Made by a program: the position numbers and the translations under genes. The notes under the pieces are model-generated. The model worked only from the letters and a program-made list of their open reading frames with translations, was not told the DNA's origin and searched no databases. A stretch of DNA of 46,254 bases, taken from positions 1,679-47,932 of the forward strand of contig JANQTQ010000129.1 in the NCBI GenBank assembly GCA_030731625.1, in the 5' to 3' direction. Source of the stretch: Polaribacter sp. Its GTDB lineage: Bacteria; Bacteroidota; Bacteroidia; Flavobacteriales; Flavobacteriaceae. Within the stretch, counting starts at the first letter, position 1, and each line of letters opens with the position of its first letter. Below are positions 13,401 to 34,030 of this stretch, in pieces.

Positions 13401-13561
13401 ATGATCGATTCAAACCACCAAGAATTGTACACTAAGGCTTTGGATGTTTGTGTACCAAAATCATTTTCTATAAAGGTTGCAACTCCCATTGCTATGGCAA
13501 ATACTATAAATAATACAGCCATTAATCTTGTAGAGTAGAAGAAATTAAAAATTTTTTTCAT
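10424..13561 (-). CDS. ccsBA: Fused cytochrome c biogenesis protein (CcsB/ResB + CcsA)
   Basis: 1045 aa, multi-TM; C-terminal haem-handling 'WANESWGRYWGWDPKETWALISIMIYAFVLHMRL'; N-terminal ResB-like. Confidence 0.92.
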   Translation of the reverse strand: MKKIFNFFYSTRLMAVLFIVFAIAMGVATFIENDFGTQTSKALVYNSWWFESIMVFFVINFFGNMFRYRLFRKEKWPVLMFHLAFLFIIIGAGVTRYAGFEGIMLINEGETTHQFLSETSYINVIVDDNKDQKTTHQPILLSAWGTNSWGFSDEFRDKEYKINLVEYVPWAEKKLVDDENGVEHLFLVESSSGSRHEHYIKSGTVQNIHNILVGYNAPDTNASINIFKRNDSLKIIAKSDGNYQVMATQQTGTIQQDSIQDFKLRALYNVAGLPFVAPEPPTKGTMKTISGPKDDKKLDVVFLDVTSNNKTERVELAGGKFNNDNFKEFKLNNLNFRMWYGAKILETPFSVKLNDFQLEKYPGSESAASYASEVTVIDANESFDFRIFMNHILDHKGYKFFQSSYDLSGEKEQTHLSVNHDFWGTFITYLGYSLLYTGLISILFAKHTRFDDLKNTLRKIRKKKLTLSVMLAVFLSSVSYSQQADIHTTNRVSDQQIDSILKASSISLEHAEKFNKLIIQDAGGRMKPAHTFASELVRKVSQTEVIHGMQPSQVLLSILENPRLWFEVPAIYLEKGNTKIREIIGVDKEAEFARLSDFYDNKGQSKIDAYIAEAQKKNIQNKFEKDVIKIGRRLWLFTSALSGDVLKIYPIPNDENNKWVSHPEVAGRNIIQTADSVYIPKLLPLYMQLLQTSKKTGDYTKANQILDGITNYQKKYGAAVYPSENKIDLEIAYNKLGIFKLSAFFYLFLGLLIIFIEILKIFYYKSKVLNIIIKSLIALTILSFLFHTFGLVSRWYISGNAPWSNAYESIIYVAWATLLFGLYLGKKSTLTIGASTFLAAIILLFAHQNWLDPEIANLQPVLNSWWLMVHVSIIVASYGPFSLGMILGIVSLLLIAFTTEKNKTRMDVNIKELTIINEMAVTVGLVMLTVGNFLGGMWANESWGRYWGWDPKETWALISIMIYAFVLHMRLIPGLRSRLTFNFASAFAYLSIMMTYFGVNFYLSGLHSYASGDQAVTPKEAYIYIGFLLVLLTLALFKYKKYFKK

Positions 13562-16775: not shown

Positions 16776-18344
16776 TTAATGTCTGCCAAAAACGATTGCT
16801 AAAGCATCAGAGATTTCGCCTAAAGTTGCTCTTTCTCTGGCGGCAATTACAGCTTGTTCTAAAAGGTTTTCATTGCCAGATTTTGCGGAATTTGTTATGT
16901 TTTCCAAAGATTTTTGAACTTCTAAAGTATTTCTATTGGCTTTTAAGAAATGCAATCTTTCAATTTGGGTTTTACGAAGCGCTTCATTGTTATCGTTTTT
17001 AATTGGTAAAGAATCTTCATGTTTTAATGGATATGAATTAACACCCACAATTAGATCTTTACCGCTATCAATTCGAGCTTGTTTTTTTACAGCTGCTTCT
17101 TCGATGCGTACTTGCGGAATTCCTTTTTCAATGGCTTTGGTCATTCCTCCTAAATCTTCTATTTCTTTATTTAATGTCCAAGCATTGTGAGCAATTTCTT
17201 CCGTTAGTTTTTCCAAATGAAAACTTCCTGCCCAAGGATCAACCGTTTTTGTAATTTGGGTTTCTTGTTGCAGAAATAGTTGTGTGTTTAGTGCAAGTTG
17301 TGCAGAAAAATCTGTGGGTGAGGCAATTGCTTCATCAAATGTGTTTATGTGCAAACTTTCTGTGCCACCAAAAACGGCCGCCATTGCTTCGATAGTAGTT
17401 CTGGCTACATTATTAAAAGGATCTTGCGCTGTTAAAGACCAACTACTTGTTTGACAATGTATTTTCAAAGCCAATGATTTTTGATCTTTTGGGTTGAACT
17501 GATTTACAATTTTGGCCCACAACATTCTTGCAGCTCTTAATTTTGCGATTTCAGTAAAATGATCCATGCCAATTGCCCAAAAGAATGATAATTTTGGAGC
17601 AATACGATCCATGCTGATTCCGGTTTCTATGTTTTTTTTGATATGCTCTAAACCCTCTGCTAACATATAGGCCAATTCAATTTCTGCAGTTGCACCAGCC
17701 TCTTGCAGGTGATCATCAGAAATAGAGATCGCATTAAATTTGGGCATTTTATTTTTGGTATATTCAAAAATATCAGCAATAATTTTCATGGATGGAGAAG
17801 GAGTGTAGTTGTCTGTATTTCTACTTGTAATTTCCTTTAAAACATCATTCTGAAAAGTTCCAGAAAGTTGATGAAGTTCAAACCCTTGTTCTTCTGCGGC
17901 AACAATATAAAAAGCTAAAATGGGTAAAATAGTTTTATTCATTGGCAATGAAATCGATATTTCATCCAAAGGAATTGTATCAAACAAAACCTTCATATCT
18001 TCTACAGAATCTATGGCAACTCCAGCTTTACCAACATCGCTTTGCGCACGTTCATGATCAGAATCATAACCATTTTGTGTTGCTAAATCAAACGCTACAA
18101 ACAATTCTTTTAGACCTGCTTCTACATTTTTTCTGTAAAAAGCATTGTTTTCTTCAGCGCTAGAAAAACTTGCATTTTGTATAATCACCCAAGGTTTTGT
18201 AATGTACATTGTTGCATTTGAACCTCTCAAATTTGGTGCAATTCCGGCAATAAAATCTTCGTGTTCACGAGTTGTATAGTCTGAATGCTGATTTTTAAAA
18301 TCAGTTTTTTTTAAAGTGATATGTTCAAATGATTTTCTAGGCAT
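16776..18344 (-). CDS. mutB: Methylmalonyl-CoA mutase large/alpha subunit, catalytic barrel only (no B12-binding domain)
   Basis: 522 aa; 'RGSNATMYITKPWVIIQNASFSSAEENNAFYRKNVEAG', 'ISISDDHLQEAGATAEIELAYMLAEGLEHI', ends '...LGEISDALAIVFGRH*' where full-length MutB continues into the cobalamin domain. Confidence 0.85.
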   Translation of the reverse strand: MPRKSFEHITLKKTDFKNQHSDYTTREHEDFIAGIAPNLRGSNATMYITKPWVIIQNASFSSAEENNAFYRKNVEAGLKELFVAFDLATQNGYDSDHERAQSDVGKAGVAIDSVEDMKVLFDTIPLDEISISLPMNKTILPILAFYIVAAEEQGFELHQLSGTFQNDVLKEITSRNTDNYTPSPSMKIIADIFEYTKNKMPKFNAISISDDHLQEAGATAEIELAYMLAEGLEHIKKNIETGISMDRIAPKLSFFWAIGMDHFTEIAKLRAARMLWAKIVNQFNPKDQKSLALKIHCQTSSWSLTAQDPFNNVARTTIEAMAAVFGGTESLHINTFDEAIASPTDFSAQLALNTQLFLQQETQITKTVDPWAGSFHLEKLTEEIAHNAWTLNKEIEDLGGMTKAIEKGIPQVRIEEAAVKKQARIDSGKDLIVGVNSYPLKHEDSLPIKNDNNEALRKTQIERLHFLKANRNTLEVQKSLENITNSAKSGNENLLEQAVIAARERATLGEISDALAIVFGRH

Positions 18345-19692
18345 TTTCTTGTGCTAATCTTTCTTTTTCTATAGTTTCAGAAAGGCGTTTTTTGTTGATA
18401 GGTACCAGCAACGTTTTTAGATTTCTTTGTTTTACAAAAGGATATAATTCGAGATTGTTTTTCATTGTATCCTTAGTATTTATCTGAAAATTAGATCCTA
18501 CCAAAACCATCTTATTCGTTGTAAAATGTTCTTCTTCTTTTAAAGCACTTTCGGATATTTTTTTTTGAATGACTCCTGCTTTTAACTGATGCAAGAATCC
18601 GCCTGCTTTTTCTATTTGTTTAAAAGTAATCAAGGCTTTTTCTGCCAATTGTTGTGCAATGGATTCTATATAATAGGATCCATCAGCAAAATTCTGAGCT
18701 TCGTGTAAATAAGTTTCTTGTTGTAAAATGAGTAACTGATTTCTTGCAATTCGGTTTCCAAATTCATTAGATTTATGAAATATGGTATCATAAGAAACAT
18801 TTGAAATCGTGTTAGAACCGCCTAAAATTGCACTCATACATTCTGATGTTGTTCGCAACATATTTACATGATAATCATAGACTGTTTTGTTGCGCACACT
18901 TGGTTGTGTAAAAATATGAGCTTTCACATTTTTTACATCATATTCTGTTAAAAGGGTTTCCCATAAAATTCTGAAAGCTCTTAATTTTGCGATTTCAAAA
19001 AAGTAATTCCCGCCAACCGAAAACATAAAATGAATCTTTGTTGCAGCATTTTTGCCAAAATGAAGTAGATATTCATTGGCATGTGCTAAGGTATATGCTA
19101 ATTGCTGCACCATATTTGCGCCAGAATTTTGATATAAATCTCCTGAAACAGCAATACAGTTTTTTGTTGACGAAACAAGAACTTCTAATCTTTTGTAGTC
19201 TTCTTTTAAGTTGACAAACCAATTGCCAGATTCTGCTAAATTGCCAATAATATCAGTTTGAAAATAGGTGTTTTCTGAATTGCAATACTTAGAAAGTTCT
19301 AATTGAAAATCATCGTCTAAAAAAGAAAATTGAAAATAAATTAGTGTAGAATTTACATCAATTTTATGTAAAACTTTTTGATAATCAAACTTTTTGGAGG
19401 CTTTAAATTGTATTGAATTTGCACCTCTTTTTAAAGCGTCTATTGCTAATGAATTGGCTATTTTTTCATCATCAATAAAAAGAGTTTGACAAATGTGAAA
19501 ACCTTTTTTAGGAAGGTTAATTTTTGAATTTGTACGGTCTTCTTTGGTATAAAAAGGTTTTACAATAATACCTTCGTCTGTTTTATAAAGTAAGGTTTCA
19601 TTATAATCTGCACCATTTAAATCTACCTGAATTTTTTGTTTCCATGCAGCAGCAGAAACAGGGTTAAATTCATCAAATAGAAAGGTACTCAT
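18337..19692 (-). CDS. mutA: Methylmalonyl-CoA mutase small/beta subunit
   Basis: 451 aa, MCM-like 'KIHFMFSVGGNYFFEIAKLRAFRILWETLL', overlaps and precedes mutB. Confidence 0.85.
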   Translation of the reverse strand: MSTFLFDEFNPVSAAAWKQKIQVDLNGADYNETLLYKTDEGIIVKPFYTKEDRTNSKINLPKKGFHICQTLFIDDEKIANSLAIDALKRGANSIQFKASKKFDYQKVLHKIDVNSTLIYFQFSFLDDDFQLELSKYCNSENTYFQTDIIGNLAESGNWFVNLKEDYKRLEVLVSSTKNCIAVSGDLYQNSGANMVQQLAYTLAHANEYLLHFGKNAATKIHFMFSVGGNYFFEIAKLRAFRILWETLLTEYDVKNVKAHIFTQPSVRNKTVYDYHVNMLRTTSECMSAILGGSNTISNVSYDTIFHKSNEFGNRIARNQLLILQQETYLHEAQNFADGSYYIESIAQQLAEKALITFKQIEKAGGFLHQLKAGVIQKKISESALKEEEHFTTNKMVLVGSNFQINTKDTMKNNLELYPFVKQRNLKTLLVPINKKRLSETIEKERLAQENA

Positions 19693-20012
19693 TACTCTTT
19701 TATGGTATCAAATTCAATAATATAAATGTCTTCGTTTTCTTTTTTAAGCAAATATTTTTCTCTTGCAAAACGCTCTAATTCTAAAGAATCTTGTAAGTTT
19801 TTAATCATTTCTTTATCTGATGCCAATTTTTCTTCATAAAAAGTAATCGTGCTTTCTAAATCTTCAATTTCGTTGTTGTACTCTCTATGAATTAGATACG
19901 AATTTTCATCAAAAAAAAGCATCCAAATCATAAAAGGAAGAAAAATGATTACAAAAATATTTGTAAAAATTTTATAAAACGGATTCTTCTTTAAATTACT
20001 AAAAAAACTCAT
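19692..20012 (-). CDS. Septum formation initiator family protein (FtsB/DivIC-like)
   Basis: 106 aa: one TM then coiled coil, 'LERFAREKYLLKKENEDIYII'. Confidence 0.82.
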   Translation of the reverse strand: MSFFSNLKKNPFYKIFTNIFVIIFLPFMIWMLFFDENSYLIHREYNNEIEDLESTITFYEEKLASDKEMIKNLQDSLELERFAREKYLLKKENEDIYIIEFDTIKE

Positions 20013-20618
20013 TTATAATCGATCGTTTATAACAGTTCTTACCATATCAATTGCCACGATATTGTGTTTATTATTAGGTATAATAATGTCTGCAAAATTT
20101 TTGGTGGGCTCTATAAATTGCTGATGCATTGGTTTTAAAGTGTCTTGGTATCTGTTTAAAACTTCATCAATATCTCTTCCTCGTTCTGTAATGTCTCGTC
20201 TAACTCTACGTATCAAACGTTCATCAGTATCTGCATGAACAAAGATTTTAATGTCAAATAATTTGCGTAATTCTTCGCTATTAAATATTAAAATTCCTTC
20301 AACAATAACCACTTTTCTAGGATGTGTTTTTATAGTGTCTGTAGTTCTGTTATGAGTTACAAAAGAGTACACAGGTTGTTCTATTGTTTTTCCTAATTTT
20401 AATCTTTTTAAATGCTTCACAATTAAATCGAAATCGATAGCTCTTGGGTGGTCAAAATTAATTTTAGATCTTTCTTCATACGTCATGTTAATCGTTTCGT
20501 TGTAGTAAGAATCTTGAGAAATTACACAAACTTCATTTGTAGGTAATTGTTTAATAATTTGATTTACAACAGTAGTTTTACCGCTTCCTGTTCCACCTGC
20601 AATTCCAATAATAAGCAT
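20013..20618 (-). CDS. udk: Uridine kinase
   Basis: Walker A 'IGIAGGTGSGKTTVVNQI'; 'SQDSYYNETINMTYEERSKINFDHPRAIDFDLI'. Confidence 0.95.
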   Translation of the reverse strand: MLIIGIAGGTGSGKTTVVNQIIKQLPTNEVCVISQDSYYNETINMTYEERSKINFDHPRAIDFDLIVKHLKRLKLGKTIEQPVYSFVTHNRTTDTIKTHPRKVVIVEGILIFNSEELRKLFDIKIFVHADTDERLIRRVRRDITERGRDIDEVLNRYQDTLKPMHQQFIEPTKNFADIIIPNNKHNIVAIDMVRTVINDRL

Positions 20619-20662: not shown

Positions 20663-21973
20663 TTATAATGTTAGAAAGTTATTAATTTTAATGTCTTTCG
20701 CTTTTAAATCGAACATTAAATTATACAACCCAAAAAAGGTTCTGTTCATATAGATAAAATGTTTCGAGCCTCTGCTAGCATTGTAAGATCTTAGTTCTGT
20801 GCTTTTAGAAAATCGTTCTCCAAATTCTGATATTTGACCAAAGAATTCTTCGCTAGAAAAATCGAACGTTTCTACATGAAAAGGTTGTGTAAAAATAGTA
20901 AGCATTTCATGAAACAAAGCGCTAAAAAATTTTAATTCTTCTTTACTATCTGTGGCTAATAAAATTTCTAATTCGTACATTTTTTCTTCAAAAAGTTTTT
21001 TATCAGAAAGGGTTTCTTTTCTTGCTAAAACAAAATACGGATTGTAAAAGTCTAAAGGAATGGTTTTCATGCAACCAAAATCTAAAGCGATTAGTTTGGC
21101 ATCCTTAGAAATTAAAAAATTACCAGGATGCGGATCTGCATGTACTTTCTTTAAATTATGAATCTGAAACATGTAAAAATCCCATAAAGCTTGCCCTAAC
21201 GCATTTCCTTTTTCTTGATCTTCGTTGATGGTTGTAAATTCTGATAGATGAATGCCATGCATCCAATCCATTGTTATGATCTGTTTTGACGATAAATCCT
21301 TATAATAATTAGGAAAAGTAAGATTAGGAATATTTTTGCAAGCATCTGCTATTTCTATACTTTGTTCAACTTCTAAAATATAATCTGTTTCTTCTAATAA
21401 TTTGTCTTGAACTTCAAAAAAATAGTCGTCAGACATTTTTCCTTTCATGTTAAACATTCTAATCACAAAAGGTTTTAACAAGGCTAAATCAGATTTTATA
21501 CTATCTGCAACGCCTGGATATTGAATTTTTACAGCCAATTCTTTGCCCTCTTTTGTTGCTTTATGAACTTGACCAATACTTGCTGCATTGTATGCTTTTA
21601 CATCAAATTCTTCATAAATTTCTGATGGAAATTTTCCAAAACTTTTCTTAAACGTTTTTAAAACCAACGCTTCAGAAAGTGGCGGAACAGAAAATTGTGC
21701 TAAAGAAAATTTTTCTACATAAGCTCTTGGCAAAACACTTTTATCCATACTTAACATTTGTGCAACTTTTAACGGACTTCCTTTTAAGTCTTTTAAGCTG
21801 TCATAAATATCTTCTGCATTCGATTTGTTTAACTGTTCTCTTGCTTCTTCTTCGGTATTTACAATTTTATTTCCATAATATTTCAAATAATTTACACCAA
21901 CTTTTGCGCCAGTTTGTACTAATTTTGAGGCACGTTGAATCTTTGAAATCGGAATTTTACTAGCTTTTTTCAT
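20663..21973 (-). CDS. ABC1/AarF (UbiB-like) atypical kinase
   Basis: 'AYNAASIGQVHKATKEGKELAVKIQYPGVADSIKSDL', 'VHADPHPGNFLISKDAKLIALDFGCMK'. Confidence 0.88.
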   Translation of the reverse strand: MKKASKIPISKIQRASKLVQTGAKVGVNYLKYYGNKIVNTEEEAREQLNKSNAEDIYDSLKDLKGSPLKVAQMLSMDKSVLPRAYVEKFSLAQFSVPPLSEALVLKTFKKSFGKFPSEIYEEFDVKAYNAASIGQVHKATKEGKELAVKIQYPGVADSIKSDLALLKPFVIRMFNMKGKMSDDYFFEVQDKLLEETDYILEVEQSIEIADACKNIPNLTFPNYYKDLSSKQIITMDWMHGIHLSEFTTINEDQEKGNALGQALWDFYMFQIHNLKKVHADPHPGNFLISKDAKLIALDFGCMKTIPLDFYNPYFVLARKETLSDKKLFEEKMYELEILLATDSKEELKFFSALFHEMLTIFTQPFHVETFDFSSEEFFGQISEFGERFSKSTELRSYNASRGSKHFIYMNRTFFGLYNLMFDLKAKDIKINNFLTL

Positions 21974-21975
21974 AT

Positions 21976-22638
21976 CTAATTAGCTTTCTTTTGAAACTTT
22001 TCTTTGTAAACAAACTTTCCTAGATCAAATGCATTTTTTAAAAATTTGTTCTCTATTAGTTCGAAACTAGTGTTTATTGATTTTTCTATTAAAATATCTG
22101 TTTTTTCAAAGTCTTCAGAGGTGTCTTCTAACCAAAATTGGATGGTTAAATAGAGTTGCAACCAAGAAGATTGATTGATGATTTTTTTTTGTATTTTCTC
22201 TAATCCTTCTATAGGTAAAATGCTTTCGGATACATCTAAATGATCTATAAAAGCGATAAAATTTTTCTTTAAACCAGAAAGTACGCCAAAAGATTTTAAC
22301 TGATTTTTACATCCTTTTAAAGCGATTACTACATATTCTCTATTTAGGTTTAAATTCTCGAAAAACGTAAAATACAAGCTAATTAATTTGTTTTTTCCGT
22401 CAAAAGAAACAAACTCTTCGCTTTCATTTAAAACTTCTAGAGAGTTTTTAAAAAGTTCTTTAAATACCGTTTTTTCAACGCTTTTTAATGATTTAAAATG
22501 TACATAAAAATTGTCTTTTTCTAATTTTGTTTGTTCACAAAAATCTTCAACATCAGCTGGTTTCTCGTTGTTTTCAACTACAAAATCCATGTACAATGTA
22601 AGGATGTCTAATTTAGAGGTGTTTTTCTTTTTTGTCAT
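21976..22638 (-). CDS. TetR/AcrR family transcriptional regulator
   Basis: N-terminal HTH-like 'KLDILTLYMDFVVENNEKPADVEDFCEQTKLEKDNFYVHFKSLKSVEKTVF'. ATG at 22638 (MTKKKNTS) preferred over 22665. Confidence 0.72.
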   Translation of the reverse strand: MTKKKNTSKLDILTLYMDFVVENNEKPADVEDFCEQTKLEKDNFYVHFKSLKSVEKTVFKELFKNSLEVLNESEEFVSFDGKNKLISLYFTFFENLNLNREYVVIALKGCKNQLKSFGVLSGLKKNFIAFIDHLDVSESILPIEGLEKIQKKIINQSSWLQLYLTIQFWLEDTSEDFEKTDILIEKSINTSFELIENKFLKNAFDLGKFVYKEKFQKKAN

Positions 22639-22763: not shown

Positions 22764-23054
22764 TTATGCAAAAATTTTACCCAATCTTTTTTTGCCATTT
22801 ACAAAATGGTTTTTGTAGGCTTCTAAACTATCAAATATTAAATTTTGCTGATTGTCTAACAATTTAACTCCGCCTTTTACTGCTTTGTCTAAGACTTGTT
22901 GCCATTCACTTGCAACAGTAATCGTTTCTGTAACTACTTCTTCTGTTGAGTTTAAAGCGAATTCATTTGCTTTTTTTACAGCTGTTTTAGCCGTTTCAAT
23001 AACATGGTTCACTTTTTCTGTAAACTGTACGGTTTTTATTTTTTTTGTACTCAT
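22764..23054 (-). CDS. Phasin-like granule/lipid-droplet-associated protein (paralog 1)
   Basis: 96 aa amphipathic helical; 'NEFALNSTEEVVTETITVASEWQQVLDKAVKGGVKLLDNQQNLIFDSLEAYKNHF'; aligns by eye with the 86-aa and 278-aa neighbours. Confidence 0.6.
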   Translation of the reverse strand: MSTKKIKTVQFTEKVNHVIETAKTAVKKANEFALNSTEEVVTETITVASEWQQVLDKAVKGGVKLLDNQQNLIFDSLEAYKNHFVNGKKRLGKIFA

Positions 23055-23084: not shown

Positions 23085-23921
23085 CTATAATTCGCCCTTT
23101 AATGCTTTTTCTGCTTGAGCTTTCCAACTATTTAAATCGTAAATTTTAGCATTAATTCCTGCGCCATTTAATAAGTTCGTTAAGTCTTCAATACTCATGT
23201 TTGCAATTTGATCGTAAGCAGTAACGTTTAAATCATTTAAGTTTTTTTCTAAAACCGGTCCAATACCTTTAATCACTTTTAAATCATTGATCACTGTGGT
23301 TTTTTCTACAATTACTTTTTCTATGATTTCTTCTTTTTTAGGTGCTGGTTTCTTTTTCGGAGCCGTTTTTTTAGCTACAGTTTTCTTAGCAGTTGCTTTT
23401 TTTGCAGTTTTAGGTGCTTTCTCTTCATTCTCATCATCAAAAATATCTTCTGTATAATCTTCAATTTTTTCTTTTACATTTTCTATAGTTTCAGAAATAT
23501 TCTTTTTTAATTTAGTAGACATTTTTTCTGCTTTCTTTACTAATTTATTACTAGAAACTTCTTTTTCTATTTTATCTTTCATTGCCTCAGCTTTCTCAAC
23601 TAAAGGATTTTCAGAAATCATTTTTTTAGCATTTTCAATCATTTTTGGGTCATAACCAACTAATGTTTTTAAACGTGCTGTGCTGTTTTCTAACTGCCCT
23701 TTTATAGATTCTGCAGTTTCTACAACCATATTAATTTGTTGTTTTGTTAAAGGCTCTGCTTTCTTAATTAATTTTGCCGTTAATTTTTGCCATTTTTCAC
23801 CTGTTTTTACGGTGGTTTCAATAGCGTTGAAAGAAGCATCAATTAAATCGCTGTTTATTTTTTTAACAATTGCTTTTGCTTTCCCTAATGTATTTTCTTT
23901 TTTTGACTTTTTAGTTGCCAT
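23085..23921 (-). CDS. Phasin-like N-terminus + histone-H1-like Lys/Ala-rich linker + C-terminal helix-hairpin-helix domain
   Basis: 278 aa: phasin-like 'NAIETTVKTGEKWQKLTAKLIKKAEPLTKQQINMVVETAESIKGQL'; 'KKATAKKTVAKKTAPKKKPAPKKEE'; 'LKVIKGIGPVLEKNLNDLNVTAYDQIANMSIEDLTNLLNGAG' HhH. Confidence 0.65.
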   Translation of the reverse strand: MATKKSKKENTLGKAKAIVKKINSDLIDASFNAIETTVKTGEKWQKLTAKLIKKAEPLTKQQINMVVETAESIKGQLENSTARLKTLVGYDPKMIENAKKMISENPLVEKAEAMKDKIEKEVSSNKLVKKAEKMSTKLKKNISETIENVKEKIEDYTEDIFDDENEEKAPKTAKKATAKKTVAKKTAPKKKPAPKKEEIIEKVIVEKTTVINDLKVIKGIGPVLEKNLNDLNVTAYDQIANMSIEDLTNLLNGAGINAKIYDLNSWKAQAEKALKGEL

Positions 23922-23959: not shown

Positions 23960-23995
23960 CAAATTTAATGTATGAGAGTTGCAAATGAGTTGCAA
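23960..23995 (-). promoter_or_regulatory. Promoter with direct repeat (phasin-HhH gene)
   Basis: -7 box TAAATTTG (complement of 23960-23967); GAGTTGCAA at 23976-23984 and 23987-23995 (11-bp period), 8 bp from the -7 box. Confidence 0.55.
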
Positions 23996-23996
23996 A

Positions 23997-24257
23997 CTAG
24001 TTTTTGCTGAAAAAATCTACTGTTTTGTTGAGCTTTTTCCAAAATATCCCTTTTCCTTTTTCAAGGTTGTTAAAGAAGTTATCTTGTTTTTTAGCAGAGA
24101 ATTTTAAACTATGTTGTATTGTTTTGGATGTAAATTTTTGTAAATCTTCTGCAGAATCAATTGTTTTTGAAACCATTTTTTCAGTAGATTTTAAAGCAAA
24201 ACTATTTAACTTTAAGGTGTTCTCTTTTATGTTTTTTGTTGAAATAAGTTTCATCAT
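23997..24257 (-). CDS. Phasin-like small protein (paralog 2)
   Basis: 86 aa; 'LNSFALKSTEKMVSKTIDSAEDLQKFTSKTIQHSLKFSAKKQDNFFNNLEKGKGIF' aligns by eye with 22764..23054. Confidence 0.55.
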   Translation of the reverse strand: MMKLISTKNIKENTLKLNSFALKSTEKMVSKTIDSAEDLQKFTSKTIQHSLKFSAKKQDNFFNNLEKGKGIFWKKLNKTVDFFSKN

Positions 24258-24283
24258 TTTATGTATTGATATTTATTACAGTA

Positions 24284-24319
24284 CAAATATAAAATGTGTG
24301 AGTTGCAAATGAGTTACAA
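24284..24319 (-). promoter_or_regulatory. Promoter with direct repeat (phasin-like paralog 2)
   Basis: -7 box TATATTTG (complement of 24284-24291); GAGTTGCAA 24300-24308 and GAGTTACAA 24311-24319, same spacing as at 23960-23995. Confidence 0.55.
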
Positions 24320-24492: not shown

Positions 24493-25296
24493 TCATTGTA
24501 TTTCCTCTATTTCTTTCAATAGTTTTTTAGTTTCAGGAAGCGGAGAAATCCCATATTCTTCTTCTAAAATCACTTCGCATTTCATATAGGTTTTTATGGC
24601 TTGAGGTCTGTTGCCTTTAAGAATATAGGCTTGCATTTGTATTCGGTAAGCATCTTCCCAAGTTGCATCAATAGCTAAAGCGTTTTGCGCCAAGCGGATA
24701 CTTTCTAACGGATTTTCTTCTAATAAAATTTCTGCTAACGTTATATAAGCTCCTAAAATTAAAAGTTGTGTTTTTTCTCTTTCTTCGGATGTCCAATCTT
24801 CAAAAATTCTGTTGGGTAAGTATGATCCTTTATACAAATCTATGGCAGCTTTATACGCTTTTTTAGAAATGGATTTATCAACCACAAATGCTTCATTCCC
24901 TATAATGATGTATTTTTCTAGTGCTTCAACATCAATCCAAACTTTTTCTAAATCAATTTGATAACTAACACCTTGTCTTATAATATATTCTGATTCGGTT
25001 CTAGAAAGTCTTTCTGGCTCTAGAACTTTATGAATTCCGTGTAAAGCAACTTTAAAATCACGATCATTCCAATCTTCCCAAAGTCCGTCCATAATTTTTT
25101 CTTTATGAAGTGCATTTCTTTTACGATTGGAAATAAAATATTGCAGTAATTGAATGGTTTTATCTCTTGCCCATTCTTTGTTATCTACCTTTTGATGATT
25201 TCTCCACACACAAAAATGCCCTAAAGTTTCAATGCGGATTTGGGCATCTTCTTTAAAGGATTCTAATTCTTGTAATTGTAGTAGAAAGTGAGACAT
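24493..25296 (-). CDS. BTAD-domain (SARP-like) transcriptional activator
   Basis: 267 aa: N-terminal winged-HTH-like 'IRIETLGHFCVWRNHQKVDNKEWARDKTIQLLQYFISNRKRNALHKEKIMDGLW', then the BTAD TPR region ending 'AIKTYMKCEVILEEEYGISPLPETKKLLKEI'. Confidence 0.82.
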   Translation of the reverse strand: MSHFLLQLQELESFKEDAQIRIETLGHFCVWRNHQKVDNKEWARDKTIQLLQYFISNRKRNALHKEKIMDGLWEDWNDRDFKVALHGIHKVLEPERLSRTESEYIIRQGVSYQIDLEKVWIDVEALEKYIIIGNEAFVVDKSISKKAYKAAIDLYKGSYLPNRIFEDWTSEEREKTQLLILGAYITLAEILLEENPLESIRLAQNALAIDATWEDAYRIQMQAYILKGNRPQAIKTYMKCEVILEEEYGISPLPETKKLLKEIEEIQ

Positions 25297-25303
25297 TTTG
25301 CAA

Positions 25304-25816
25304 CTATTTCTTTTTTATAGCGTCTATTTTTGTGGATAGTTTTGTTATTTCTGATGACAAACTTTCAATCTGACTTTGAATTTTATTAAAATCAGATCTT
25401 GATGCATTTCGCCATTGATCAATTTGCACTTTCTCTGATATTTCGTCTCCAATTAAACTTATTTTATCTTGAATTTCATCTTGCAAATGATTAAACTGTT
25501 TCTTCGGATCTTTTAACGTATCTCTAATTACTTTTGGGCCAAAATCTTTAATGGTTTTCCACATAGAAAGACTTTTTTGAACAATATTTTCTTGTTCTTC
25601 AGTTGTTTGATGTTTCGTTGCTTCTTCTGTTAATTCACCTAATTTTTGTTGCATAAAAAGCAAAGCATCATTAAAATCTGAAAACCGTTTTTCTGCACCA
25701 TCTTGCTCATGAGATATTTTACCACGCCACTGCAGTTGAGATTCGCCCTTTTCTTCAAAAATTCGTTGATTAAAACGAACCATAAACGAGGCTGTTTGAT
25801 CTTGTTTTTTTGTCAT
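25304..25816 (-). CDS. Coiled-coil protein with N-terminal 'sFmVRf..WrGkIsH' domain
   Basis: 'SFMVRFNQRIFEEKGESQLQWRGKISHEQDGAEKRFSDFNDALLFM' followed by a phasin-like/coiled-coil C-terminus. ATG at 25816 (MTKKQ) preferred, which removes the overlap with gpsA. Confidence 0.6.
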   Translation of the reverse strand: MTKKQDQTASFMVRFNQRIFEEKGESQLQWRGKISHEQDGAEKRFSDFNDALLFMQQKLGELTEEATKHQTTEEQENIVQKSLSMWKTIKDFGPKVIRDTLKDPKKQFNHLQDEIQDKISLIGDEISEKVQIDQWRNASRSDFNKIQSQIESLSSEITKLSTKIDAIKKK

Positions 25817-25826
25817 CACTTTAATT

Positions 25827-26828
25827 TTAACCTGGTTCTTTTTCAGACCCAGTTTCATATTTTAATAAACCTTTAAAAGCATCTTTTACATTATTTCCTT
25901 CGTAAAGCACTTTGTAAATTTCTTTGGCTATTGGCATGTCAATTTTATAGATGTTTGCAAGTTCCATCACTACTTTTGCAGTTTTTACACCTTCAGCAAT
26001 TTCATCCATTTCGTTTATAATTTGCTCTAAACTTTTGCCTCTTCCTAATTGAAAGCCAACATGATGGTTTCTACTTTTACTACTAGAACAAGTTGCTACC
26101 AAATCTCCCATGCCAGCTAAACCAGAAAACGTGCTTTTTTTACCTCCCATGGCAATTCCTAATCGTGTAAGTTCTGCCAAACCTCTCGTAATAATTGCTG
26201 CACGTGTGTTATCTCCGGCATTAGAGCCATCACCCATTCCTGTTGCAATTGCATAAATATTTTTTAAAGCTCCGGCCAATTCGCATCCAATAACATCATC
26301 ATTTGTATACACACGAAATAAACCTGAACTAAAAACAGGTTGTAAACATTTTGCAATGGAATGATCTACCATAGCAATTACAGCGGCAGCAGCTTTTCCA
26401 GAATGGATTTCCTTGGCTAAATTAGGTCCTGTTAAAACTCCAATTGGATGTCCAGGCATTAATTCTTCAATTATTTCAGTCATTCGCATTTTAGTGCTAA
26501 TTTCTAAACCTTTTGCTAAATTTATAATTGGAACCCAAGGTCTGATGTGCGGTTTTGCTTCTGCCAGAACTTCACGTAAACTTTGTGAAGGAACCCCCAT
26601 TACAATTACATCTACATCTTCTACAGTTTCTTTTATAGAACTTGATGCTTTTAACGAATGCGTTAATTTTGCGTTTGGTAAATATTTACTATTCGTATGA
26701 GATTTATTTATTTCATCTACGATTTCTTGGTTTCTGGCCCAAATAATAGTTGGGCTATTTTTTGCAGCTAATGATGCAACTGTTGTTCCCCAAGAACCAC
26801 CACCCAATACGCCAACTTTTAGTTTCAT
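25827..26828 (-). CDS. gpsA: NAD(P)H-dependent glycerol-3-phosphate dehydrogenase
   Basis: 'VGVLGGGSWGTTVASLAAKN', 'VLTGPNLAKEIHSG', 'GCELAGALKNIYAIATGMGDGSNAGDNTRAAIITRGLAE'. Confidence 0.96.
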   Translation of the reverse strand: MKLKVGVLGGGSWGTTVASLAAKNSPTIIWARNQEIVDEINKSHTNSKYLPNAKLTHSLKASSSIKETVEDVDVIVMGVPSQSLREVLAEAKPHIRPWVPIINLAKGLEISTKMRMTEIIEELMPGHPIGVLTGPNLAKEIHSGKAAAAVIAMVDHSIAKCLQPVFSSGLFRVYTNDDVIGCELAGALKNIYAIATGMGDGSNAGDNTRAAIITRGLAELTRLGIAMGGKKSTFSGLAGMGDLVATCSSSKSRNHHVGFQLGRGKSLEQIINEMDEIAEGVKTAKVVMELANIYKIDMPIAKEIYKVLYEGNNVKDAFKGLLKYETGSEKEPG

Positions 26829-26841
26829 AATTTTAGTTTTA

Positions 26842-29800
26842 TTAGTTTTCTAATTCCTTTAAAAATAAATTTCTCACTTCTTCTACATATGTATCTATGT
26901 TTTTTGGTTTCCATTCAGAGGTATCTACAGGGTCTAAAACCACTACTTCAATATGTGTAGGATTAAACATTTTACTACCTTTTGGCATTGCCATATATGC
27001 GTTTTTAATTACAATGGGTACAATAGGTACGCCAGCTTTTATGGCTAAATGAAAAGCTCCTTTTTTAAATTTACCTAAAGTTTTGCTGCCACTTCTGGTT
27101 CCTTCTGGCGCAATAGCAACAGAGGTTCCTTTTTTTAGAATTTCCGTTGCATTTTTCATCGATTCTAAAGCTTTCTTTTTGTTTGTTCTATCAATAAATA
27201 TTGCGCCCATAGCTTTAAATATGGGGCCAAAAGGAGTCATTTCTAACTCTTTTTTTGCAATTCCGGTTACATCTTTTCTTAATAATTTAAGAATGATAAA
27301 AAAGTCTGCCGAAGATTGATGATTAAAACAAAAAACAGCGGGTCTATGGTCTTCTAAATTATGTTTGTTTTTTACAACAATGTCCAATCCTGCTAATTTT
27401 GTACCTAAATCTCCAATGCCAGAAATGGTTGCATTGATGCCTTCTTTATGAGACATTGATAAGGTACCTTTAAGGATTCCTTTTAAGGCAGATGGATATA
27501 AACTTGCAGCAGCCAAACCAGTTCTTAACCCATTAACGAGTGGTTTTCTTTTATTTTCTTTAAAGCGAAGTATTTTCCAATCGTTTTCAAAAGCCAATTG
27601 CGCTAATTTATGATCTGGATTGGTGGCAATAGGTTTTCCTACAATTTCTAAAAGTGGATAATCGTCAATACTATCCGTATAGAAAAAACTTTTAGACAAA
27701 TCTATGTTGTTCGTTTTTGCAAAAGATCTACCAGCTCTTGCTTTTCCTTCTTGCCAACACATTTCTGTAATTACACCAGTAAATTTTCCTTTTCTAACTT
27801 CCATTTCTGTACAGAAAATATCTTTAATGCCTAATTCATTGGCAATAGGTGTTATTTGATAACGTGTTGCCGCAGAAATGATCACAACTTGATGCCCTTT
27901 TTCCATGTGTGATGCTATTAAATTTATTGCTTCCGGATAAATAGTGTTTGCTAAGTGGTCTTGATACACTTCTTCTCCTAAATCTATAAACTGCTTTTCT
28001 TTGATGCCTTTTACACCCAAAGCAGAAATTTTTGTAAGCATTTCAAAATCTCTATTTCCTGCCGCATATACTAAAACGGTTGCAAATTGAGAAAGTAATT
28101 CTTTGGCAGTAGATTTACCACTTAACAAGCGCGTTTTTAAAAATTGTTTGGCAGAAAAATCGTTTATTAAGGTTCTGTCTAGATCAAAAAAAGCTGCAAT
28201 ATGTGGGCCTTCTTCATCTTCTAAAACATCTTCAGAAACACTATCTAAATCTGCTCCAGGAACCGTTTCTGTTTCCTCATTTTTTTTGCTACTTAATTTC
28301 TTCGTATTTAAAAGTTCTAGTTTTTGTAAAAATCGCAAACGCTCTGTAAGATTGTCTAAAAAATCCATCCAAATATCTAATTCTTTGAATTCAATTTTTT
28401 TATCATTCGGAGTTAATTTACTGTTTTTTGCCAAGCGTAAGGCGCTTATTAAAAACGGTTTAGAAACACTGTCTAATCTACTAATTCTATTTTGCCAGTG
28501 CAATTCTTTACCTTTAAAAAGACATAATTCTATAAATTCTTCATCAGAAAATTCATCCTCTAAATCCCAAGAATGTAACGTGTGGCAAACCACTTTATTG
28601 GCTTCTAAATAAATCAATATTAATCCTTTAGAAACAAACATTTCTTGTTTTGCAAGTAAGTTATTAATGTCTCCTTTTGGATCGTTAATGATTGCTCTCC
28701 AGTTTTTATCAAACAACAACAATTCGGCTTCAATTTCACTACTAAATTTAGGTTTGTTGGTATAGAAAAACTCGAATTTAAAAAGATTTCTTAAGCGCAT
28801 TATTTCATTCCAAAAAGAAACAATTCTATCCGAAGATTCTTCATCCTTTATTTTAACCAAAGCCATTTCTATAAAAGCTCTATGATACAAATGGGCAGAG
28901 GCCATGTTTGCATAATACGTTGCCGATAAAAATTCTGAAGCCGCTAAGCTATATTGTGTTTTATAACCAGCTTTATTTTTTTGAACAATACCAGAACTTT
29001 GTAATAGATTTAAAGCTTTTTGTGTGGATGCGCCTATACTTTTTCCGCGTTCAATTAAAACATCTTTTTTCCGTTGTTCTATATAATTCATTAATTTTAA
29101 CACACTAAACTCTATTTCATTCTTGGTTAATGAGAAGTTGTTTAACAACACATTACAAACTAATGAAACGGTAGTTACAGGTGTAATCATGTTTGCTTTA
29201 TGAATCAATTCAAAAGCAAAACGAGGTAAAGTATTGGTGTCTGAATAACTGTCTTCTTCAATATCTGGAATGATGGCATTCTGATGTGCAGCAGCATCTA
29301 CGGGTTCGCCAAATCTTATCGCTGCTTTTCCGTATTGATTTCCTAATTTTTTAAAATAGTTGATAAAGGAGCCAATGTTTTCAGATTTTTTTGCAACACC
29401 TTTACCTTCTTCAGTCATTTCTTTAACATCCGGAATTAAATCATATACAATAGAAACAGGAACGTATTTTATGTTTCTGGTGCTTTCTTTTTCACCTTCC
29501 ATGATGTATTTTAAAATACCCATTTGTGGATATACAATCTTGCCTGTTCTAGAGCGGGTACCTTCTATATTCCAAGTTAAATGATCGCCATTTTCGATCA
29601 TGCAAGAAATATAATGTCTTAAAGCAGCTTTGTAAATTTGGTCTTCTTTAAAACTTCTTCGGATAAAAATTAAACCCGAGTTTTTGCCTAATTGTTTAAA
29701 ACCAGGAACGGCTAAATTGATGCCTCCAAAAGTATACGGAATTGGCATTCCGTAACGCGCCAAAGTAGTAACCAATACAACCGTATCTAAATACGTTTTG

Positions 29801-30093
29801 TGAGTTAAAATAAACGCAACAGAATTTTGTCGCATTAATTTCATCAAGTTTTTTATTTCTTTAGGATCAATATCTATTTTGTTATCATACGCTTTAGACA
29901 TCATAAATTGAAATCCTTTTACAGACAACATGTTTGCAATAGGATGTTGTTGCGAATACAATTCGCGAATACAATCTGCACCTTTTTTTTGTACTTCAGA
30001 AAGCTCGACTTTTTGCTCAGTTGCAATTTCTTGCAACTTTTCTTGAAATTTAGTGTGATTGATACTATTTTGCAAATTGTGTTCCATAATCAA
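26842..30093 (-). CDS. Tri-domain glycerolipid enzyme: PlsB-like G3P acyltransferase + HAD-IB phosphatase + PlsC-like 1-acyl-G3P acyltransferase
   Basis: 1083 aa: acyltransferase 1 'THKTYLDTVVL' and 'NIEGTRSRTGK'; HAD 'AAFFDLDRTLINDFSAK' and 'ISAATRYQITPIA'; acyltransferase 2 'FNHQSSADFFII' and 'APEGTRSGSKTLGKFKKGAFHLA'. Confidence 0.88.
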   Translation of the reverse strand: MIMEHNLQNSINHTKFQEKLQEIATEQKVELSEVQKKGADCIRELYSQQHPIANMLSVKGFQFMMSKAYDNKIDIDPKEIKNLMKLMRQNSVAFILTHKTYLDTVVLVTTLARYGMPIPYTFGGINLAVPGFKQLGKNSGLIFIRRSFKEDQIYKAALRHYISCMIENGDHLTWNIEGTRSRTGKIVYPQMGILKYIMEGEKESTRNIKYVPVSIVYDLIPDVKEMTEEGKGVAKKSENIGSFINYFKKLGNQYGKAAIRFGEPVDAAAHQNAIIPDIEEDSYSDTNTLPRFAFELIHKANMITPVTTVSLVCNVLLNNFSLTKNEIEFSVLKLMNYIEQRKKDVLIERGKSIGASTQKALNLLQSSGIVQKNKAGYKTQYSLAASEFLSATYYANMASAHLYHRAFIEMALVKIKDEESSDRIVSFWNEIMRLRNLFKFEFFYTNKPKFSSEIEAELLLFDKNWRAIINDPKGDINNLLAKQEMFVSKGLILIYLEANKVVCHTLHSWDLEDEFSDEEFIELCLFKGKELHWQNRISRLDSVSKPFLISALRLAKNSKLTPNDKKIEFKELDIWMDFLDNLTERLRFLQKLELLNTKKLSSKKNEETETVPGADLDSVSEDVLEDEEGPHIAAFFDLDRTLINDFSAKQFLKTRLLSGKSTAKELLSQFATVLVYAAGNRDFEMLTKISALGVKGIKEKQFIDLGEEVYQDHLANTIYPEAINLIASHMEKGHQVVIISAATRYQITPIANELGIKDIFCTEMEVRKGKFTGVITEMCWQEGKARAGRSFAKTNNIDLSKSFFYTDSIDDYPLLEIVGKPIATNPDHKLAQLAFENDWKILRFKENKRKPLVNGLRTGLAAASLYPSALKGILKGTLSMSHKEGINATISGIGDLGTKLAGLDIVVKNKHNLEDHRPAVFCFNHQSSADFFIILKLLRKDVTGIAKKELEMTPFGPIFKAMGAIFIDRTNKKKALESMKNATEILKKGTSVAIAPEGTRSGSKTLGKFKKGAFHLAIKAGVPIVPIVIKNAYMAMPKGSKMFNPTHIEVVVLDPVDTSEWKPKNIDTYVEEVRNLFLKELEN

Positions 30094-31259: not shown

Positions 31260-32195
31260 TTAGGCTTTAATGCTAGCATTTAACCAATTAATTACGTCTT
31301 GTTCAACCTCTTTTCTGTTGATTTCATGTAGCATTTCATGTCTGCCACCTTTATATATTTTAAGTGTTAGATTTTTAATGCCATTTTTTTCATAATTCTT
31401 TGCAACTTTTAGTACGCCTTTTCCCATTTCTCCTACAGGATCTTTATCACCCGAAAAAATTAAAATAGGCAACTCTTTTGGTGTGTTTTTAAAAGCTTTA
31501 GTTTCGTTAACTTTCTTAGTGCCTTTTAAAATATCTCTAAAAACACTTAAAGAAAAATCTTCTATCCTTAAAGGATCAGCTTCAAACAAATCAACCTGAT
31601 GTTCATCGCTACTAATCCAATCTACATTTGTTCTGTTGGGTTTAAATTTTTTATTAAATTGTGTAAAAAACAAGTTTTTAAGCAATTCATTACTTCTGTA
31701 TTTCCCATTTATTTGACCCAATATTTTTGCGCTAAAAAGACCAACGGAACCTAGTCCTTTCATAAAATTTGCCGTTCCGGATAAAATTAAAGCTTGTATA
31801 TCATCGCCATAAATGGTAACATATTCTCTACTTAACAAAGAGCCCATGCTATGACCAAACAAAATTATTTTTTTCTTCGGATGCTCTTTTTTGATAATTT
31901 CTGTAAGTTGACGCATATCATTTACAGCATCTAAAAAATAATCATCACCATCATAATATCCTAAATAATCATGATTTTTTACTGATTGACCATGAATTCT
32001 ATGATCATTTGCATACACTACAAAACCTTCATTTTGTAATTTTGTAGCTATTGATTGATATCTACCAGCATGTTCACCAACGCCATGCGCAATTTGTACA
32101 ATTCCTTTTACAGGCTTGTTTTTAGTTGATGGCCATTTGTAATAAAAAATGGTTTCATTATCAAAGGTTTGATATGTGCTGGTGGTAAAACTCAT
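31260..32195 (-). CDS. Monoacylglycerol-lipase-like alpha/beta hydrolase
   Basis: 311 aa; 'IVQIAHGVGEHAGRYQSIATKLQNEGFVVYANDHRIHGQS', 'ILFGHSMGSLLSREYV', 'IYKGGRHEMLHEINRKEV'. Confidence 0.88.
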   Translation of the reverse strand: MSFTTSTYQTFDNETIFYYKWPSTKNKPVKGIVQIAHGVGEHAGRYQSIATKLQNEGFVVYANDHRIHGQSVKNHDYLGYYDGDDYFLDAVNDMRQLTEIIKKEHPKKKIILFGHSMGSLLSREYVTIYGDDIQALILSGTANFMKGLGSVGLFSAKILGQINGKYRSNELLKNLFFTQFNKKFKPNRTNVDWISSDEHQVDLFEADPLRIEDFSLSVFRDILKGTKKVNETKAFKNTPKELPILIFSGDKDPVGEMGKGVLKVAKNYEKNGIKNLTLKIYKGGRHEMLHEINRKEVEQDVINWLNASIKA

Positions 32196-34030
32196 TAATT
32201 TTGCTCTAAAAATATAGTCAGAATTTGAGAAAATTTATCAATATTCTTTTTTGTCCCCGTAAACTTTAACCTTTCTTGAATTAGAGCTTCTGCTACAAAT
32301 AAATTCTTCTTATAAAGATTCATTAAATTGCTGTCATCAATCTCTATTTTCACTAAAGATTTTATTGTTTTTTTCTTTTTTACGGATACAGATTCTGATG
32401 AGATTTCTAATTGATAGTCTATTATTTCATCACCTAAATTAAGTTGAAAATCATAGCAGCCAATTAGTTGTTTTCTAAATATTTCATTCTCATTTAAAAA
32501 CTTTTTAAAAGAGCTAAAGAACACAGCGCTTTTAGTTTTTTGAGATTTTGTTGCTGTTTTTTGTTTGTCTTTTGCTAAAATAAGTACTTCTAATTCATTG
32601 GCAGATTCTCTAATATATCTAGAAAATTTATCAGCATCTGGCATCGTTTTAGCATCCGAAGTTGTGGTTATAGAAACCAATCCATTATAGCTAAACGCAG
32701 CGATTATCAAACCAAAACCATCTAAAACTGGTGTCAATCCAAAAATACCAACTACTTTATGTCCTTTTAAAAATAACGGGTTTTGCGGACCAGGAACATT
32801 GGTAATGGTCACATTAAATGGTGGTTTATGAAATTCCTTAATATTGTATCTTGTGTATAAACCTGCCGCTAAATTTGCCAATCCAAAAGGAACTGCATCT
32901 GCCATTTTTGATAAGGCTTTTGCGCCAACTGCTTTGTGTCTAGATTTTCCTAAATTAGTTTGTTCCTGAATATACTCTAATCGTTCTAAAGGATTTTTTA
33001 TATGCGTTGCTATTTTTACAAACATATTAGAAATCTGGTTATTCATTTTTTGTGCTTCGCCTTTTACACGGATAGAAATAGGCACATTGGCAACTAAAGG
33101 TTGCGTGGGTAATTTTTCTCGTTCTTCTAAATATCTTCTAATTGCACCAGCGCAAATTGCTAGTATTAAATCGTTAATACTAACATCCATAATTTTACGA
33201 AGATTGTTTATTCTGTCAAAAGACAAAATAGCGGTTCCCCAGGTTCTTTTTGGGGAAACCGATTCGTTAAAAATGGTTCTTGGTGTGGAGTAGTTGCTTT
33301 TAAGCGAAATTCTTTTAGGTCTAAGTTGATGATTCATTTTTACTTTTAGAAAAGTATAGGCCGTTTCGCCAATCAATTTAGGAACTTTTAAAGGGTTTTT
33401 AAAAAAATCATAGGTGCTTTTTATCAATAAACGTACTTCATCTGGCAAAGGTTCTGGTTCGTAAGGTTTTGGAGCTGCTGGTTTTTTGTCTTTGTTTTCC
33501 TCGTTATTATCAAATAAAATACTCATCAAGCTTACTCCAGAACTTCCGTCAATCATCACATGATGAATTTTAGAAACTATGGCAATAGATCCTTTTGGAA
33601 CTTGAGAAACTTCATCTAAACCTTCAATAAAATCAATAGTCCACAAAGGTCTTCTTAAATCTAACGGACTGCTAAAGATGGTAGAAGTCATTTCTCTTAG
33701 CGTTTTCCAATTGGCAGGATCTGGTAATTTTAGTCTGTTGATGTGTAAATCAATGTCAAAATTAGGATCGTCTACCCAATAAGGATAATCTAAATTTAAA
33801 GGCACGTGTAAAAGCTTCTTTCTAAATTTAGGAATTAAATGTAGCTTAGAAGCAACTATTTTTTTAAAATCATTAAATTCAATAGAACCTTCAACAATTG
33901 TTAAAGTTGCTATATGCATAGGGCTAGTTGGAGATTCTGCATATAAAAATGTTGCATCTTGTCCAGAAACTTGTTGTAATGAACTCTCTAAAACTTCTTG
34001 CAAAAGATCTTTAATTACCTTTTTAGCCAT
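32195..34030 (-). CDS. Wax ester synthase/diacylglycerol acyltransferase (WS/DGAT) with C-terminal SCP2-like extension
   Basis: 611 aa; catalytic 'KIHHVMIDGSSG' (HHxxxDG), 'FNVTITNVPGPQNPLFLKG'; last ~110 aa resemble an SCP2 sterol-carrier fold. Confidence 0.9.
   Translation of the reverse strand: MAKKVIKDLLQEVLESSLQQVSGQDATFLYAESPTSPMHIATLTIVEGSIEFNDFKKIVASKLHLIPKFRKKLLHVPLNLDYPYWVDDPNFDIDLHINRLKLPDPANWKTLREMTSTIFSSPLDLRRPLWTIDFIEGLDEVSQVPKGSIAIVSKIHHVMIDGSSGVSLMSILFDNNEENKDKKPAAPKPYEPEPLPDEVRLLIKSTYDFFKNPLKVPKLIGETAYTFLKVKMNHQLRPKRISLKSNYSTPRTIFNESVSPKRTWGTAILSFDRINNLRKIMDVSINDLILAICAGAIRRYLEEREKLPTQPLVANVPISIRVKGEAQKMNNQISNMFVKIATHIKNPLERLEYIQEQTNLGKSRHKAVGAKALSKMADAVPFGLANLAAGLYTRYNIKEFHKPPFNVTITNVPGPQNPLFLKGHKVVGIFGLTPVLDGFGLIIAAFSYNGLVSITTTSDAKTMPDADKFSRYIRESANELEVLILAKDKQKTATKSQKTKSAVFFSSFKKFLNENEIFRKQLIGCYDFQLNLGDEIIDYQLEISSESVSVKKKKTIKSLVKIEIDDSNLMNLYKKNLFVAEALIQERLKFTGTKKNIDKFSQILTIFLEQN

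Follow-up and report, generated by a model that had tools for sequence, protein, structure and literature searches.

A paired direct repeat at two Polaribacter promoters is the predicted operator of an adjacent SARP-type regulator of putative storage-granule genes

Two neighbouring genes for phasin-like proteins in Polaribacter sp. share a promoter architecture, and the question raised by this locus is which protein acts on it and to what end. The window, i.e. the whole stretch of 46,254 nucleotides that was analysed (contig JANQTQ010000129.1), carries in front of each of the two genes a direct repeat and a -7 box at a fixed distance from it:

24300 to 24319, minus strand: box A, direct repeat TTGTAACTC-AT-TTGCAACTC with an 11-bp period, predicted activator site of the gene for the 86-aa phasin-like protein, conserved in orthologous loci
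24284 to 24291, minus strand: -7 box TATATTTG (TAnnTTTG), 8 bp downstream of box A, predicted TSS at ~24279
23976 to 23995, minus strand: box B, direct repeat TTGCAACTC-AT-TTGCAACTC, predicted activator site of the gene for the 278-aa phasin-like protein
23960 to 23967, minus strand: -7 box TAAATTTG, 8 bp downstream of box B, predicted TSS at ~23955

Both promoters have the form YTGYAACTC-AT-TTGCAACTC-N8-TAnnTTTG when read in the direction of the genes. For box B the minus strand has TTGCAACTC-AT-TTGCAACTC-TCATACAT-TAAATTTG, followed by 38 nt to the ATG at 23921, and for box A TTGTAACTC-AT-TTGCAACTC-ACACATTT-TATATTTG, followed by 26 nt to the ATG at 24257. Read on the plus strand, the box B promoter consists of CAAATTTA (23960-23967), N8 (23968-23975), GAGTTGCAA (23976-23984), AT and GAGTTGCAA (23987-23995), and the box A promoter of CAAATATA (24284-24291), N8 (24292-24299), GAGTTGCAA (24300-24308), AT and GAGTTACAA (24311-24319). 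A preliminary description had reported two promoters with a common 11-bp repeat fixed 8 bp from the -7 box, and we find them at the positions that it gave; its order of the elements, with the repeat before the -7 box, does not hold for the plus strand, on which the -7 box comes first.

The element is rare and constrained. With up to three mismatches allowed, the 20-mer has two matches in the window, boxes A and B, and none in 100 dinucleotide shuffles. The genome-wide scan proposed in the preliminary description, done here over 3.0 Mb with the composite element at up to three mismatches, recovered only boxes A and B as good sites, and the exact degenerate composite is expected ~7e-6 times per genome by chance. 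In the relatives, repeats and -7 box reach ~2 bits of information per column, compared with ~0.1-0.7 bits for the 8-bp spacer, which argues for constrained sequence and not for simple ancestry. The spacing was also recovered from the Flavobacteriaceae loci by a query consisting of the repeats alone, in which no -7 box was assumed: among 113 distinct pairs, an exact TAnnTTTG lies at spacer 8 in 90, the sole other spacer being 19 (three cases), i.e. 8 plus one 11-bp unit, and the half-sites in these loci are 11 bp apart in 88 cases with no other distance occurring more than three times. A chance repeat is ruled out by the shuffles, by reversed-pattern controls and by the conservation across genomes.

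The genes around the two boxes are the following:

25304 to 25858, minus strand: 184-aa partner protein, a homologue of which adjoins the BTAD gene in Bacteroidota and in most Chloroflexota loci
24493 to 25296, minus strand: SARP-type regulator of 267 aa, OmpR/PhoB-type wHTH plus BTAD, predicted binder of boxes A and B
23997 to 24257, minus strand: phasin-like protein A, 86 aa, helical, predicted box A target, with orthologues behind the box in many Polaribacter loci
23085 to 23921, minus strand: phasin-like protein B, 278 aa, K/A-rich with a C-terminal HHH-like domain, predicted box B target (PhasinPhaH E 1.2e-11, below the cut-off)
22764 to 23054, minus strand: phasin-like protein C, 96 aa, 30 bp downstream of B and without a box of its own
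21976 to 22638, minus strand: TetR_C_23 regulator, member of the Flavobacteriaceae operon
20663 to 21973, minus strand: ABC1/UbiB-like atypical kinase (PF03109, E 1.2e-54), conserved operon member

The distribution of the box follows that of the BTAD gene. A BTAD orthologue is present in 14 of 60 Polaribacter-like genomes; the same 14 encode full-length phasin B, and all of them carry the box, mostly twice, with spacer letters that vary among the copies and with the repeats and the -7 box kept. The remaining 46 Polaribacter genomes, which lack BTAD, contain no proper box; a match in one BTAD-less genome (G011) has three mismatches and a broken -7 box and was taken as chance. Widening the survey to 300 Flavobacteriaceae genomes from 237 genera, we find the box in nine of nine genomes with BTAD versus none of 291 without (p ~2e-17, a figure that ignores ancestry and linkage), and all 21 matches lie within ~2 kb of the BTAD gene. 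Because BTAD and the box mostly belong to one cluster, this co-occurrence partly reflects linkage and shared ancestry and is, hence, inflated. A BTAD match in G366 (E 1.9e-4, 66 residues of a 775-aa frame) belongs to a different TPR/BTAD-like protein and was not treated as an orthologue.

Scanning GTDB genomes with the BTAD profile yielded 80 loci. One to three boxes lie downstream of BTAD in 46 of the 51 Flavobacteriaceae loci, always with a spacer of 8. The arrangement that is conserved among them runs from the 184-aa partner through BTAD, a first box with phasin-like A and a second box with phasin-like B to phasin-like C, TetR and the ABC1 kinase. The motif is present upstream of the orthologous phasin-like genes, as the reading put forward in the preliminary description demands. 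The five boxless loci lie at contig ends or are rearranged, and three of them have boxes elsewhere in the genome; one of the five, L077, is the second of two copies in the strain that also has L076. In this strain, Polaribacter filamentus, the partner-BTAD segment is found on two contigs, and the boxes of L076 are ~1.6 kb downstream of BTAD, which suggests that DNA was inserted or duplicated between BTAD and box A. A reduced Polaribacter genome (G048) retains phasin B, TetR and ABC1 (L060; G048:C1, about 17105-20419) and has neither BTAD nor box; an unrelated long ORF lies directly upstream, and the 184-aa partner is missing at this place. This genome is 83% complete and the locus is contiguous; it is a natural deletion that is useful as a control strain.

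What kind of regulator is the BTAD protein? It scores 47.8 bits against Pfam BTAD (cut-off 22.1) and has the N-terminal OmpR-type wHTH fused to BTAD that characterizes SARP-type regulators; it consists of these two parts and lacks the receiver domain of PhoB-type response regulators. BTAD is found in 50 of 50 homologues and Trans_reg_C in 17 of the 50 by Pfam at E<0.01, the wHTH of the protein in the window being below the Pfam cut-off for Trans_reg_C. In a Foldseek search with the AF2 model (pLDDT 94), the best match is AfsR in the afsS transcription complex (8hvr, E 9.8e-10, TM 0.77), followed by EmbR. A profile search reaches AfsR over residues 8-261 (E 8e-6); single-sequence phmmer against the PDB returned nothing useful. 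We discount the conservation of the recognition helix, because the peptide patterns used to recruit loci included DRDFKVAL, the start of that helix.

In SARP sites the direct repeats are spaced by 11 or 22 bp and a distance of 8 bp separates the 3' repeat from the -10 element; the afs box is 22 bp long and centred at -29.5 (PMC10936776). In Flavobacterium, the sigmaA -7 box occupies -12 to -5 (PMC9723704); with the -7 box in this position, the paired repeat falls at ~-40 to -19, that is, in the same register as a SARP site. Both promoters have the 11-bp repeat, the 8-bp distance and the overlap with the -35 region that define such sites. The SARP-like direct-repeat geometry of ~11 bp suggested in the preliminary description agrees with the published 11-bp/8-bp spacing, and the fold of the BTAD protein is AfsR-like; the idea of an activator site with one helical turn per repeat gains strong support from the tracking of BTAD by the box across genomes and phyla. 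No -33 element is visible at the usual spacing, which is in line with an activator-dependent promoter. The site, its geometry and conservation, its link with BTAD, the SARP-like fold and the gene context are established computationally. We consider it highly probable that the compact wHTH-BTAD protein encoded next to it, a SARP-type activator, has the paired repeat as its operator and is predicted to bind there and to switch on storage-granule coat genes. The system is best read as a SARP-type activator from outside Actinobacteria that is dedicated to storage-granule genes.

The nature of these granules is suggested by the genes upstream of the regulator and its partner:

25827 to 26828, minus strand: NAD(P)-dependent glycerol-3-phosphate dehydrogenase, as we take it to be from the translation of the ORF, a neutral-lipid precursor step with syntenic homologues
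26842 to 30093, minus strand: fusion of GPAT_C, HAD and PlsC-type acyltransferase, 1083 aa
30090 to 31250, minus strand: alpha/beta-hydrolase, lipase-like
31260 to 32195, minus strand: alpha/beta-hydrolase (Hydrolase_4), monoacylglycerol-lipase-like
32195 to 34030, minus strand: wax ester synthase/diacylglycerol acyltransferase, WS/DGAT (PF03007 1.8e-52, PF06974 1.3e-28)

WS/DGAT is encoded in 15 of the 60 Polaribacter genomes, namely in all 14 with BTAD and in one incomplete MAG. Synteny of WS/DGAT is kept in most loci of Flavobacteriaceae and in several of Saprospiraceae. The synthase that would accompany a PHA phasin is present in the Chloroflexota relatives; PhaC_N was detected in none of the 60 Polaribacter genomes and in none of 32 BTAD-bearing Bacteroidota genomes. 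PF07167 is a weak detector of class III PhaC, yet it registered the class III enzyme of a Chloroflexota locus (L142). The naming of the genes as phasin-like in the preliminary description retains weak sequence support, with best scores below the cut-offs (PhasinPhaH 45 bits versus 250, Phasin 13.7 versus 28.8) and with no family match above cut-off for protein A, but PHA granules in Polaribacter are not supported, the synthase being undetected. Because the cluster comprises WS/DGAT, acyltransferases, glycerol-3-phosphate dehydrogenase and lipases, proteins A, B and C are probably coat proteins of triacylglycerol or wax-ester droplets, as judged from gene context and weak profile matches. Protein C is probably co-transcribed with B from box B.

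The pairing of regulator and box extends beyond Flavobacteriaceae. Saprospiraceae loci have the box with (T/C)ATCTTTG in front of a phasin B-like gene, and in two of them (L130, L134) it precedes the partner-BTAD pair. The BTAD proteins of Chloroflexota are ~46% identical and again adjoin a homologue of the 184-aa partner. In this phylum, where the box scan covered BTAD-bearing genomes, a TGYAAC-type repeat lies near BTAD in 10 of 15 loci, either between BTAD and the partner gene or nearby, and in nine of these it is upstream of the partner gene; five of the 15 have no clear box near BTAD. In our reading of the sequence regions, the repeat is followed after 8 bp by a TANNNT -10 element, as in CTGTAACTGGGCTGTAACTT-gtctttgt-TATAAT (L141), TTGTAACTCAACTGTAACTC-ccctttgt-TAAAAT (L142), N8-TAAAAT (L144) and N8-TACAAT (L140). 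Thus the 11-bp period and the 8-bp spacer are kept, whereas the downstream genes differ and the -10 element, TATAAT-like here, follows the phylum's own sigma factor.

The genes behind the Chloroflexota boxes point to PHA granules. A full class III PHA operon is present at L142 (PhaE 174.7 bits, cut-off 155; PhaC 485, cut-off 365), and in this phylum the homologous regulator and the same box are found on PHA-granule operons. Further boxes precede small phasins and phaC (L191, L192), an SDR-phaC pair (L191), an SDR gene (L194) and phasin-like small proteins (L187, L195). A near-box with one mismatch and N8-TAGAAT (L188, G428:C5:243360) lies before genes for an acyl-CoA carboxylase carboxyltransferase and a biotin carboxylase, which could supply propionyl- or malonyl-type precursors. 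In addition, two related Chloroflexota genomes have in common an exact box with N8-TATAAT (L186, L189; G428:C3:488755, G429:C4:285657) that is followed by ~1.7 kb without a clear gene and then by a lipoate-ligase gene, raising the question of a small RNA or an unrecognised gene as target.

PHO boxes, too, consist of direct repeats with an 11-bp period in front of the -10, and PhoB/OmpR-type regulators are very common in Flavobacteriaceae. Given this common site geometry, a response regulator of this type could in principle bind the box instead of BTAD, which would place the phasin-like genes in a phosphate/stress regulon: wHTH superfamily and repeat period are common to both, profiles show a weak relationship between BTAD and the PhoB DNA-binding domain, and AfsR and PhoP sites overlap at afsS (PMC10972967). 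However, 291 of the 300 Flavobacteriaceae genomes lack the box, each of its 21 matches is close to a BTAD gene, and the genes near it relate to storage granules and not to phosphate. A box confined to BTAD genomes makes a PhoB-type binder unlikely.

Alternatively, BTAD may bind and yet repress or tune the promoters by occluding RNA polymerase, given that the box spans the region of a would-be -33 box. We consider this improbable: the helical phase and the 8-bp spacing are those of characterised SARP activators, the spacing is kept with two different -10 types, and there is no visible alternative -33 element at the usual spacing. Thus, we infer activation rather than repression. As for the two local binders proposed in the preliminary description, BTAD stands as the predicted one on account of its co-occurrence with the box and its AfsR-like fold, and TetR falls. 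TetR proteins usually bind inverted repeats. The TetR_C_23 gene (21976-22638) is adjacent and belongs to the same conserved Flavobacteriaceae operon, but the box has no notable dyad symmetry, the gene was not found in the box-bearing Saprospiraceae and Chloroflexota loci, and G048 has TetR without BTAD and without the box, all of which renders TetR a very improbable binder. That the box is a conserved element with no regulatory role (e.g. one belonging to an RNA or to replication) or the trace of a shared ancestral duplication, as the closeness of the two copies might suggest, is hardly credible in view of the constraint on repeats and -7 box against a drifting N8 spacer and drifting flanks. 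Moreover, copies occur singly, in threes or in pairs separated by ~75-95 bp or 325 bp, and are also found at other places in Chloroflexota genomes.

Returning to the SARP-type activator, we suggest by analogy with the SARP literature a side-by-side BTAD dimer on the repeats that recruits polymerase: (i) two BTAD protomers would bind head-to-tail to the two 11-bp repeats, (ii) the pair would occupy ~-40 to -19 of a sigmaA promoter with a good -7 box and without a -33 box at the usual spacing, (iii) BTAD would recruit RNA polymerase in the manner of AfsR at afsS, and (iv) recruitment would lead to transcription of phasin-like A and B(-C), the products of which probably coat neutral-lipid (triacylglycerol/wax ester) droplets from the upstream WS/DGAT-acyltransferase-lipase genes. 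Any signal that controls BTAD is at this stage conjectural. Speculatively, the 184-aa partner might couple the state of the granule to BTAD, by analogy with PhaR.

In textbooks, SARPs figure as activators of antibiotic production in Actinobacteria. The regulator described here has in common with them (AfsR, DnrI, ActII-ORF4, and EmbR as a structural relative) the OmpR-type wHTH and BTAD fold, as well as the 11-bp repeats, the distance of 8 bp between the 3' repeat and the -10, the -35 overlap and the -29.5 centre (PMC10936776, PMC10972967); a further common trait is a third repeat at some of the sites. It differs in its hosts, which are Bacteroidota and Chloroflexota and not Actinobacteria, in its half-site (TGYAACT), in the coupling to the flavobacterial TAnnTTTG -7 box and in the genes near the boxes, which are storage-granule genes and not antibiotic clusters; the identity to AfsR is ~17% in the structural alignment. 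Since the cluster consists of WS/DGAT neutral-lipid or PHA genes and not of the antibiotic genes typical, though not structurally diagnostic, of SARPs, we use the label SARP-type and not antibiotic regulator. The 11-bp direct repeats near the -10 and the wHTH are also common to PhoB and the PHO box, in contrast to which the regulator here has no receiver domain and the box goes with the BTAD gene instead of with phosphate genes. Dedicated regulators of a major coat protein are likewise known for granules in PhaR-phaP of Ralstonia (PMC12849132, PMC3079617) and for droplets in MLDSR-MLDS of Rhodococcus jostii (PMC5504291). PhaR, however, is chiefly a granule-titrated repressor of an unrelated family, whereas the regulator here is SARP-type and is not known to bind granules. 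WS/DGAT with an acyltransferase neighbour has been reported in the same genera of marine Bacteroidota, and the passages on these clusters describe no BTAD regulator, coat-like proteins or box (PMC10351704). In the open-access literature we found no prior description of BTAD/SARP proteins in Bacteroidetes or of SARP control of phasins.

If the proposed assignment is true, the SARP mechanism is older and broader than its actinobacterial examples and also operates on the divergent TAnnTTTG promoter of flavobacteria. Moreover, there would be candidates for the regulator and the coat proteins of lipid droplets in marine flavobacteria and for a PHA regulator in Chloroflexota, in each case with a precise site that is easy to mutate. 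Whether these systems go back to an ancient SARP-type module in Bacteroidota and Chloroflexota, serving both triacylglycerol/wax-ester and PHA granules, with operator and spacing kept, with -10 type and cargo varying and with a partner that may report granule state, appears to us evenly balanced.

The partner protein itself has no Pfam family and is uncharacterised in the two phyla in which it occurs (homologues at L142:8901-9413 and L148:8854-9363). In Chloroflexota it lies behind the box, and one homologue there has a weak phasin-like signature in a helix of its C-terminal half. Two other genes of the window are close to the lipid cluster: at 10424-13561 a 1045-aa fusion of ResB and a CcsA-type (Cytochrom_C_asm) protein, and at 13692-16010 a chondroitinase-B-type polysaccharide lyase (PF14592, E 3.7e-173).
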